Assembly (NCBI GenBank): GCA_029866965.1
Contig: CP123444.1
Location: 2,335,501 to 2,399,500, forward strand
Source: Flavobacteriaceae bacterium YJPT1-3
Lineage (GTDB): Bacteria > Bacteroidota > Bacteroidia > Flavobacteriales > Flavobacteriaceae
Reading direction: 5' to 3'
Length of the DNA stretch: 64,000 nucleotides
The translations under genes and the position numbers were made by a program. This document shows positions 1-3,786 of the stretch, in pieces. The notes beneath the pieces were generated by a model. It was not told the origin of the DNA. It worked only from the letters and a program-made list of their open reading frames with translations, and searched no databases. The first letter of the stretch is position 1. Each line of letters starts with the position of its first letter.

Positions 1-608
1 CAGCTCTGCCATTTCAGTTTGAATTTTTTCTCTTCGTGTGGGGTCACCGTGGGACCCGAATGATTGCTCAAGTCTAAGGTGAAGCAAATATTTTGATTGT
101 ACTCCTTCTCGCGAAGGACAATCTCAGCCGTGTAAGTGCCAGCTCCTAATTTAGAAGTGTCTAAAGACATCAGCACACGCTCTGAGCCGTGGGGAGGCAA
201 GCTGACTTGCTGTTTATTGAGCTGGGGTTGGCTATTTGCGGTATTACCATCCTGATCGTGCAGGGGTCGTAGACCTACGCGATACGTTTTTTCCACATCG
301 CAGGGATTGCTCACCTGGAATGGAACGATAATGCGCTCACCCATCATGGCTTTGCGATGGATGCTGGCGATGCAATGCGGCGGGCATTCCTCTTTGGGCG
401 GACAGCAATGATCACTGTTAAACATACTTTGGACGGGGGCCATCAAATTGCTGCTCATTTGGGATACGCGTTGTGCAGTGCCCGAATTGTTTTGCAAGAC
501 ATTATCGATCAGGGTTCCGTAGAAGTCTAGCGACATATCCGTGAGGTTTTGAATATTATTCATGACGGTATCGCTAAAGACATTGGATTGTAAGTTTCTT
601 TTCTCCAT
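1..608 (-). CDS. Unrecognised cytosolic protein, 3' end cut by window (partial)
   Basis: An open frame starts at ATG 608-606 and runs off the left edge without a stop, giving 202 residues. The first ~65 residues are polar and look helical, phasin-like in character only. A Cys-rich linker follows (HCCPPKEECPPHC, residues 67-79: CC-x5-C-x3-C). Then comes a beta-rich region resembling an Ig-like or NEW3-type sandwich (phrases such as IVPFQVSNPC and LGAGTYTAEIVL). No signal peptide or membrane segment is visible, so it is probably cytosolic. It is the third gene of a minus-strand operon, 16 bp after the 625-1395 gene. I do not recognise the family; an inclusion or granule-coat role is only a guess. 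Confidence 0.7.
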   Translation of the reverse strand, partial: MEKRNLQSNVFSDTVMNNIQNLTDMSLDFYGTLIDNVLQNNSGTAQRVSQMSSNLMAPVQSMFNSDHCCPPKEECPPHCIASIHRKAMMGERIIVPFQVSNPCDVEKTYRVGLRPLHDQDGNTANSQPQLNKQQVSLPPHGSERVLMSLDTSKLGAGTYTAEIVLREKEYNQNICFTLDLSNHSGPTVTPHEEKKFKLKWQS

Positions 609-624
609 GATGTTCTATTTAAGT

Positions 625-1395
625 TTAGGCCGTATGTGATTTAAAGGTCATTGCGATCTCTTCATCCCAAAAGCGCAGCAGCAGATCGTAATCGTTTTTC
701 TCTTGGGCTTGTTTAGGAAGGGTCACCTCGATCTCGACCAACATGGACTGACCCGTTTCGATGATCTTACCGGCTTGCTTGACCTCAGACCGGGCCCAGT
801 CCGGTAAATGTTCTTTCAAATTTTGGGTGACATGATCCATGGTAGCTGTAAAGCCTTCTTCAGGATCCTTTCGAAAACCATATCCAAATGCTCTGCATAA
901 TAAGTCCATATCCAAGGGCGCCACATGTTTGACCTCTGGGATTTGAAAAGGCATATTTCCGGTGTTCGTTACCGTAAGTTGTGCCAGATGCTTGGTACCT
1001 GCAGCGGTGCCTTGAAAGGTAAAGCTGCTGGGTTGGATGTCAATGGCAATGAGTGGCTGTACCACCATTTTGACTTTTTGCTGTTTACCTCCCAAAGTAA
1101 TGTACTGATCATAGGTTCCTGGTGGAGTGTCTATGGGTAAAGAAATTGAGATGTTCTCTAGTCTAGATTCTCCCGCCCTTAGCCTGGTATTGACATAGAG
1201 GGGAGCTTCATCAACACTCTTTGTTTTTTTCGTCTTCGTGGGCTTGAGATCGATAAAGCGAAGCCGGGCAGAATCATCATTCCTATTGTGGAGTTGCACA
1301 CTACCGGACAGTCGACCCGGGGGGCCGTTAAGAATGATCTCCTTTTGATCGGTTTCGATCTGTTCCAAAATGGAATCTGGGACTTTTGACAACAT
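625..1395 (-). CDS. Unrecognised Ig-like sandwich protein, 256 aa
   Basis: Middle gene of the 0-2 kb minus operon. The protein has two beta-rich halves. Residues ~20-110 contain GSVQLHNRND and LPIDTPPGTYD, a pattern seen in Ig-like/COG1470-type sandwiches. Residues ~115-256 contain QLTVTNTGNMPFQIP, then an insertion (LCRAFGYGFRKDPEEGF), then a final strand pair. No signal peptide is seen. Its layout parallels the beta part of the downstream gene, so the two may be diverged partners of one assembly. Start ATG at 1395, 12 bp after the stop of the upstream gene. Function unknown. Confidence 0.75.
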   Translation of the reverse strand: MLSKVPDSILEQIETDQKEIILNGPPGRLSGSVQLHNRNDDSARLRFIDLKPTKTKKTKSVDEAPLYVNTRLRAGESRLENISISLPIDTPPGTYDQYITLGGKQQKVKMVVQPLIAIDIQPSSFTFQGTAAGTKHLAQLTVTNTGNMPFQIPEVKHVAPLDMDLLCRAFGYGFRKDPEEGFTATMDHVTQNLKEHLPDWARSEVKQAGKIIETGQSMLVEIEVTLPKQAQEKNDYDLLLRFWDEEIAMTFKSHTA

Positions 1396-1407
1396 GAGGT
1401 GTATATT

Positions 1408-1881
1408 TTAACCTTCCGGTTCGTTAGGATTTCGCCCTGGGAAAGGCCGGGTGTCTGGCTTACAGCAAGGATCCTCTTCACAACGCTCCGCAGCAGTAGG
1501 GATGTAGGGCTCGGTAATGATTTGACTTTCTCCCCCCATACAGATACTGAAGAATTCAATACCCATCATTTTAAAGCAAACATTGGAGTAATTGGGAATG
1601 CGTACCCGTTGTTTCATGAGGTCTTTGATATCGTCCAGCGTAAATCGAGGAAGATTCAGAATTTCAGTGGCTACCGGTTCTTTGGAATCTCCGGTGAGCT
1701 TCAGAGTATTGGTCGTGGTCAGGCTTCCACTGATCTCATTTTTTACCGAACCGGATAACTCGGTTTCCAACTTGCCGGAGTGACGAGCATCCATGCCTCC
1801 CGAGAGCTGGGTATCCAGGTCAAAAGGACGTATGGGGTTTAAGTTATGAGTGTAGCTGGTGGGTATTTTGGGTGTACTCAT
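1408..1881 (-). CDS. Unrecognised protein with SG octapeptide repeats, 157 aa
   Basis: First gene of the 0-2 kb minus operon. Residues 21-54 hold four 8-residue units each centred on Ser-Gly (SG at 27-28, 35-36, 43-44, 51-52), with a looser fifth (TG at 63-64). The unit reads roughly xx(E/Q)LSGSx. A conserved-looking segment follows (FTLDDIKDLMKQRV), then a hydrophobic stretch (FKMMGIEFFSICMGG), then a Cys/Pro-rich tail (RCEEDPCCKPDTRP). The tail shares the CC-Pro style with the third gene of the operon. No signal peptide. Function unknown; the repeats suggest a structural or binding surface. Confidence 0.72.
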   Translation of the reverse strand: MSTPKIPTSYTHNLNPIRPFDLDTQLSGGMDARHSGKLETELSGSVKNEISGSLTTTNTLKLTGDSKEPVATEILNLPRFTLDDIKDLMKQRVRIPNYSNVCFKMMGIEFFSICMGGESQIITEPYIPTAAERCEEDPCCKPDTRPFPGRNPNEPEG

Positions 1882-1884
1882 CCT

Positions 1885-1951
1885 AGGTGGTTATTGGTTA
1901 TGGTTCACCTAAGGTAGTTAAAAAAATGTAAAAAAAGAAGTATAACTACCT
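1885..1951. promoter_or_regulatory. Inverted repeats upstream of the 0-2 kb operon
   Basis: AGGTAGTTA at 1912-1920 is matched by its exact reverse complement TAACTACCT at 1943-1951, separated by 22 bp of A-rich DNA. A shorter pair, AGGTG/CACCT, lies at 1885-1889 and 1905-1909, nearer the start codon at 1881. The position just upstream of a minus-strand operon suits an operator or a leader hairpin. No perfect TAnnTTTG element was found for this operon. Confidence 0.4.
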
Positions 1952-3469: not shown

Positions 3470-3608
3470 GATTTTCTTTTTTAATTAAATATAGCAAAAT
3501 AAGGGAATTAGAAGGATAAGCTATTTAGTGGGACGCTGTTCCCCCAACTGAAACCGGGCTTTTGTCGCTTTTGATTGCAAATTAAAAGAGTATTATAGCT
3601 AGTGCAGA

Positions 3609-3786
3609 ATTATCCTTCGGCTGATCCTGACAGGAAGTTGTGGTACTTCAATTGTTCACTAAACGTGCTTGCTTATTGTCCAGGATTATCCTTCGGCTGA
3701 TCCTGACAGGAAGTTGTGGCACTTCAATTGTTCACTAAACGTGCTTGATTATTGTCCAGGATTATCCTTCGGCTGATCCTGACAGC
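3609..3786. repeat. 76-bp tandem direct repeat, 2.3 copies
   Basis: Copies start at 3609, 3685 and 3761, exactly 76 bp apart. The first two are full length and differ at only a few positions (for example GGTAC against GGCAC). The third stops after about 26 bp, where the sequence turns into an AGCAC/GTGCT hairpin. Each full unit contains short dyads, including AGGAT/ATCCT and GAAGT/ACTTC. Confidence 0.85.

Follow-up and report, generated by a model that had tools for sequence, protein, structure and literature searches.

A seven-gene cassette of Flavobacteriaceae bacterium YJPT1-3 that may encode a coated cytoplasmic isoprenoid body

The left edge of the DNA analysed here, a 64,000-nucleotide stretch of the genome of Flavobacteriaceae bacterium YJPT1-3 (the window; G000:C1:2335501-2399500, in a genome that is a single 3.16 Mb contig), contains three tightly packed open reading frames, A, B and C, all on the minus strand. 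A preliminary description presented them as an operon of three proteins that might form one assembly, and the question raised is what that assembly could be. The genes to the left of the window, which that description had proposed to inspect, were examined. It is apparent that A, B and C are indeed present and closely spaced, but that they are the start of a seven-gene operon, A-G, transcribed leftwards past the window's left edge; the four further genes, D-G, had been overlooked. The full-length gene C terminates 52 bases left of window base 1 on the genome contig. Past G, on the opposite strand, there is an ORF that we take to be katG-like. The features are given below, the first six in window positions and the last four, which lie left of the window, in contig positions.

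1408..1881, minus strand: gene A (157 aa), which opens the operon, with a Ser-Gly octad region, a conserved core and a Cys-rich tail
1714..1809, minus strand: Ser-Gly array of A, with four units of 8 residues each (residues 25-56; period 8)
1462..1482, minus strand: Cys tail of A (C134, C139, C140), kept in 9/9 loci
625..1395, minus strand: gene B (256 aa), with a probable pair of Ig-type sandwiches
1..608, minus strand: gene C, truncated by the window edge (full length 219 aa; helical-looking head, Cys linker, probable sandwich)
372..407, minus strand: Cys linker of C, CC-x5-C-x3-C (C68, C69, C75, C79; conserved Cys)
G000:C1 2334784-2335443, minus strand: gene D (219 aa)
G000:C1 2334096-2334821, minus strand: gene E (241 aa)
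G000:C1 2333048-2334085, minus strand: gene F, polyprenyl synthetase (345 aa)
G000:C1 2331586-2333043, minus strand: gene G, geranylgeranyl-reductase family flavoprotein (485 aa)

Just upstream of A, at window 1912-1951, there is a perfect inverted repeat with 9-nt arms (AGGTAGTTA / TAACTACCT) separated by 22 nt. It is overlapped by an imperfect inverted repeat of 22 nt, and the two are possibly an operator. The TAnnTTTG promoter pattern was no commoner than chance in L001. An intergenic region at window 3602-3785 contains two 76-nt direct repeats (95% alike) and a partial, 32-nt third copy, arranged head to tail.

All seven genes were found, in identical order and with gaps of -44 to 68 nt, in nine of nine distinct loci (L002, which is that of the window's own genome, and L007, L008, L009, L010, L011, L012, L020 and L021). 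This number of loci is a lower bound, since the scan of public contigs employed two short peptide patterns; gene A was found on six contigs of the public genome collection, and L009, which by its length and position is the contig found in G019, was counted once. The cassette is rare, gene A being present in 4 of 397 Flavobacteriaceae genomes and gene B in 2 of 79 related genomes, the own genome included in each case. Records that carry the cassette include Marixanthomonas spongiae, Arcticiflavibacter luteus and a Chryseobacterium MAG. Phylum-wide searches covered 395 genomes each, and searches for further members in the families of G843 (12 genomes), G579 (13) and G515 (41) added none. In searches of the open-licence PMC literature, no description of the cassette was found.

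In flanks of up to about 10 kb, gene sharing was confined to two close pairs, L007/L020 and L008/L009, apart from regulator and sensor genes. The cassette is self-contained and patchily spread. Similar response regulators were observed at differing positions, just upstream of A in L012, at L002:2950-6885 and just past G in L009, and a sensor kinase-like protein is encoded near the cassette in L012 and L002. These regulators, presumably of the LytTR type, are perhaps those of the cassette and perhaps merely members of a common family. A phage or plasmid origin was considered and dropped: A, B and D were unmatched in PHROGs to an E value of 0.1, C and E each had one weak match of unknown function, and plasmid records yielded neither A nor G at the limits applied.

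Evidence that these are functional genes was provided by substitution rates in two close locus pairs. The values of dN were far below those of dS for all seven cassette genes (for gene A, 0.008 vs 0.261 in one pair and 0 vs 0.181 in the other), which shows A, B and C to be real genes. The cassette genes are under purifying selection. As the preliminary description had stated for the first three proteins, no signal peptide was apparent, and the same was true of membrane spans, in a hydropathy scan of A-E from three loci (highest 19-residue Kyte-Doolittle mean, 1.55). The own-genome A-E exceeded no curated cut-off in Pfam or NCBIfam. Clear homology of A-C to a characterised system, the result that had been named as contrary to the description, was absent; F and G fall into established enzyme families.

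Protein A was said to contain four exact 8-residue Ser-Gly units. The spacing of the Ser-Gly pairs is exact (residues 27/28, 35/36, 43/44 and 51/52), but the units themselves are similar rather than identical. This periodicity was reached by 0 of 1000 shuffles of the window protein, and period 8 was the best among periods 3-16 in seven of eight A orthologues, the window's included. The L012 protein has lost part of one unit and has a best period of 12, and the array is therefore not fixed. All five cysteines of A are conserved in 9/9 loci. An Ig-like fold had been proposed for A, B and C alike; for A it is unsupported, with no Pfam match in seven members and an AlphaFold model of very low confidence (mean pLDDT 39, from an alignment of 7 sequences).

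For B the proposed fold is probable and for C it is weakly indicated. Window B gave sub-threshold matches to Ig-type Pfam models. When ten B and E orthologues were checked against Pfam cut-offs, two passed, namely B of L012 (NEW3 domain NPCBM_assoc, 25.9 vs 24.4 bits) and E of L011 (DUF4625, 27.5 vs 27 bits), and the other eight passed none; the double β-sandwich that had been read in B is consistent with the sub-threshold matches and with that single orthologue. Comparisons with hhalign, in which pair values lack calibration to a database, gave 96% for D and E, 74-76% for B and D, and 18-27% for B and E, the first half of B being related to the sandwich of D and, weakly, to that of E. An Ig-type sandwich is thus probable, from these profiles, in both B and D.

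C is linked weakly to D (15-33%), and its values with B or E (0.3-0.5%) were no higher than those of pairs with A, F or G (0.1-1.8%). The claim that C comprises a helical head, a CC-x5-C-x3-C linker and a sandwich was correct as to the Cys motif, with a sandwich that is only weakly linked, and to D. Within the linker, C69 and C75 are present in 9/9 loci and C68 and C79 in 8/9, the full linker being found in 8/9; C of L011 has two of these four linker cysteines missing. The conserved cysteines may possibly form a metal site.

D and E, which follow C, are further proteins with a helical head and a sandwich, and their genes overlap by 8-44 nt in 9/9 loci. The AlphaFold model of E (six orthologues in the alignment) consists of a helical hairpin (residues 28-64 and 74-119), with pLDDT values of approximately 45-60, and a sandwich (139-244), in which they are mostly 84-92. 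Among the structure matches listed (Z 8.3-12.3), the sandwich resembled PapD/MSP/ASH domains, including those of CEP192 (6fvi; Z 10.7, rmsd 2.1, 102 aligned) and HYDIN (2e6j; Z 10.3), as well as the sandwich at the N terminus of GH123 enzymes (5fr0; Z 12.3). The C-terminal domain of E is confidently modelled as a PapD/MSP-type Ig fold. A viral structure library yielded generic sandwiches, and PDB sequence searches with the A-E profiles yielded nothing convincing except GH123 sandwiches for E (0.0054). Phasin structures were absent among the E matches listed, which span residues 133-247 and so hardly cover the E head.

The Phasin_2 model (PF09361) was matched by four of the nine D orthologues, with E values of 0.0025-0.18 and scores of 12.5-18.4 bits, all under the 24.9-bit cut-off. 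The match was located at residues 56-86 in three orthologues and at residues 7-45 in the fourth. Phasin_2 was not matched by D of the window's genome, and 0/9 D orthologues passed a Pfam cut-off. The head helices are amphipathic, the highest hydrophobic moment (0.72) occurring in E. Identification of C, D or E as phasins was rejected, since Phasin_2 was either under its cut-off or unmatched. The heads are here called phasin-like in style rather than phasins.

The last two genes encode enzymes. F exceeded the cut-off for polyprenyl synthetase PF00348 (190.6 vs 27 bits), with a domain that begins at residue 36 of 345, and its nearest solved relatives are the GGPP synthases 1wmw and 1wy0. The Asp-rich motifs DDxxD and DDxxN are invariant in 8 aligned F-type rows. 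Because the host genome contains two other polyprenyl synthetases, F is regarded as a dedicated copy. G exceeded the cut-off for geranylgeranyl reductase TIGR02032 (202.1 vs 158.8 bits), which none of the other 12 among the 13 own-genome matches did, and also passed PF22578 (29 vs 27 bits); these scores identify it as a member of the geranylgeranyl-reductase superfamily. Its second-best curated model was the menaquinone reductase MenJ (123.2 bits vs a cut-off of 700).

The F-type synthases can be distinguished from others by their motifs. Of 14 F-type rows, 12 contain the sequence KKTCWY and the remaining two KKTSWY and KKTCAY; KKTCWY was observed in 0/7 other synthases. The final residue of the second Asp motif is N in 14/14 F-type rows and D in six of the seven others, the seventh being unmatched. 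A tree of these 14 F-type sequences and 7 others, in which the Kitasatospora and Ruegeria rows began at an internal Met, separated the two groups with a support of 99/96 and in 98% of 200 bootstrap trees. With full-length rows and two more synthases (nine others), the values were 88/98 and 90% of 200 bootstrap trees. Of seven synthases found in one search (207-218 bits), five group with the other synthases and are not of the F type.

Relatives of E were found beside F-type synthases in other lineages. The phylum-wide search with E detected, besides the own genome, a head-only relative in G515, a Chlorobia-like genome, where the next gene encodes an F homologue (55% identity). A search of plasmid records with F returned seven, of which two from Ruegeria (46% and 46% identity) and one from Kitasatospora (44%) are of the F type; the tree covered these and a Collinsella record, the other matches being from Phocaeicola, Nonomuraea and Parabacteroides (30-32%). 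The Collinsella synthase falls just outside the F-type branch, its second motif ending in N and the KKTC motif being absent, and no head or sandwich neighbour was found for it.

The E profile was run against 1153 ORFs from the five loci with an F-type gene (G515, G579, Kitasatospora and two Ruegeria) and from one own-genome stretch. Up to an E value of 0.05, four proteins only were found, and each adjoins F: E heads in G515 (1.7e-13) and Kitasatospora (2.5e-6), and E sandwiches in the two Ruegeria loci (1.6e-10 and 7.9e-9), encoded there on the strand opposite to F. Among 1700 control ORFs the best value was 0.3, for protein B itself, followed by 0.59 for an unrelated ORF, and reversed ORFs reached 1.7 at best. 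The gene after the F-type synthase of G579 encodes a 199-aa protein found by the D profile alone, and weakly (0.006). A head or sandwich neighbour is thus present, weakly so in G579, in 5/5 F-type loci with readable context; a sixth, in G843, is at a contig end and was outside this count, and the two Ruegeria plasmids, 96% alike in F, were counted as one lineage. As E halves adjoin F-type synthases elsewhere, the coat-like proteins are tied to an isoprenoid enzyme beyond the operon, and it is these separate halves that argue most strongly for a role of the structural proteins in the service of the synthase.

Several other genes were noted at these loci. On the Ruegeria plasmids (L027:8103-13475 and L028:6100-11475), a family 1 encapsulin, a DUF3237 protein, an FAD oxidoreductase and the F-type synthase are encoded in one run, which, with the convergent E-like sandwich gene, is possibly an isoprenoid encapsulin system. 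A 1080-aa fusion of ferritin-like, flavin amine-oxidase-type and Rieske parts is encoded near the F-type synthase of G579 (L026:13077-16319). In G515 (L019:10396-11856), the genes for the E-head and F homologues are immediately preceded, on their own strand, by one for an Amidohydro_2 protein of 486 aa that contains a hydrophobic stretch. A Streptomyces plasmid synthase that adjoins a Ruegeria-like FAD oxidoreductase was set aside as not of the F type, and a Haloterrigena locus with such an oxidoreductase has no annotated synthase.

The reading preferred here, to which a probability of roughly 40% is assigned, is that F, G and a hydrophobic product are surrounded in the cytoplasm by a coat or scaffold made of A-E, A-G thus encoding a cytoplasmic isoprenoid body or coated metabolon. 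F would condense isoprenoid units to a linear polyprenyl diphosphate, probably of about C20, and G, a flavin enzyme, would saturate double bonds of the prenyl chain. The helical heads of C, D and E would sit on the hydrophobic product or on a membrane-derived surface, in the manner of phasins, and their PapD/MSP-type Ig sandwiches would face outwards, binding one another and B; A, with its repeats and five invariant cysteines, may link or cap the layer. The product, the body, the binding partner of the heads, the geometry and the roles of A and of the cysteines are all inferred.

Support for such a coat comes from the constancy of the seven genes, including the D/E overlap, in all nine loci, from a dedicated synthase and a reductase that each exceed their family cut-offs, from the hairpin-plus-sandwich model of E, from the E halves beside F in G515, Kitasatospora and Ruegeria, and from the weak Phasin_2 matches of some D orthologues. 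Since the proteins keep order and company in 9/9 loci, the earlier claim of one assembly is supported, albeit indirectly. Among the three guesses first offered (a surface coat of an intracellular body, a metal-binding scaffold, a contractile or adhesive part), the coat fits best, because D, E and two isoprenoid enzymes follow and 4/9 D orthologues have weak phasin matches. Against it, those matches are below the cut-off, lie in two different places and are absent from the window's D; the helical part of E is of low confidence; C is unrelated to B or E by hhalign, and A has no reliable model; no G-type reductase was recognised beside F-type synthases outside the cassette; and the Collinsella synthase, so close to the F type, has neither neighbour.

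The main rival, considered somewhat less probable, is a lipid-free, soluble scaffold or shell, in which A-E hold F and G as a metabolon and the heads dock the enzymes. It would account for heads and sandwiches that adjoin F-type synthases in other lineages even where no G was seen, as well as for the lack of a hydrophobic span in A-E of three loci, and the encapsulin gene in F's gene run on the two Ruegeria plasmids, whose shell may likewise dock enzymes, is in accord with it. The weak phasin matches of some D heads argue otherwise, as do the absence of a shell-type protein from the cassette and that of a family 1 encapsulin from the host genome.

It is unlikely that A-E form a peripheral membrane complex that organises or bends the membrane, with F and G making or reducing the prenyl chains of membrane lipids or quinones. 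The MenJ score of G, although far under its cut-off, and the amphipathic head helices would suit such a complex, but A-E of three loci contain no span and a prenyltransferase for attaching the chain to a head group is absent from the cassette. Still less probable is an ordinary terpenoid or carotenoid-like cluster, with the small proteins as accessory regulators or chaperones and no compartment. F-type genes elsewhere do lie near FAD oxidoreductases and the ferritin-like/FAD/Rieske fusion, but here five structural-looking genes accompany two enzymes in 9/9 loci, and neither a terpene cyclase nor a phytoene synthase is among the seven. A surface, adhesive or contractile structure can be dismissed: pilus chaperones and WxL-interacting proteins are among the sandwich matches, but the same fold lists include cytoplasmic and ciliary proteins, no signal peptide, span or other export signal is apparent, no contractile or adhesive genes are in the operon, and isoprenoid enzymes are encoded downstream.

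A bolder proposal, advanced tentatively, is that A-E found a type of bacterial organelle in which a coat of heads and Ig sandwiches surrounds an isoprenoid body or enzyme core, with no encapsulin or microcompartment shell. Such a type would be modular, since in Actinomycetota, Alphaproteobacteria and Chlorobia-like bacteria heads and sandwiches are encoded by genes of their own that accompany this type of synthase. If this is true, an isoprenoid pathway is packaged by a coat that is unlike phasins on polyester, encapsulins or microcompartments, and encapsulin-type and granule-type packaging are linked via one type of synthase. One compact operon would then provide a genetic handle on isoprenoid packaging, and five protein families, which lack annotation in the genome of the window, would gain a function.

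The cassette can be compared with several known systems. Like phasin-coated granules, it has small, soluble proteins with helical heads, in several paralogues, beside enzymes for a hydrophobic product; unlike them, its heads are fused to Ig-type sandwiches, and its enzymes are those of isoprenoid metabolism, with no PHA synthase among the seven. Two reports (PMC8049743, PMC8346489) describe family 2B encapsulin operons that include polyprenyl transferases, and according to the latter the family 2 cargo polyprenyl transferase has a disordered N-terminal region of 50-100 residues. The cassette shares with encapsulin operons a polyprenyl synthetase kept beside protein-assembly genes, but differs in that no HK97-fold shell gene is among A-G, that F scores 153.3 bits against the 450-bit cut-off of the encapsulin cargo model NF041169, and that F has no long N-terminal extension. 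A family 1 encapsulin in the host was rejected, PF04454 being found in 0/1 own genome.

At the level of single proteins, F has the PF00348 domain and both Asp-rich motifs of IdsA/GGPP synthases, but differs from them in that F-type rows share the KKTCWY-like and DDxxN signatures and group together. G passes the cut-off of the geranylgeranyl reductase superfamily TIGR02032 and is far below those of the equivalog models. The C-terminal domain of E has the fold of the PapD/MSP/ASH Ig domains of CEP192, HYDIN and VAP-A and of the GH123 sandwich, and related sandwiches are probably present in D and B. This shared fold does not, of course, imply a function. It is the combination that sets E apart from the PapD/MSP/ASH proteins, its sandwich being fused to a conserved helical hairpin and encoded together with isoprenoid enzymes.
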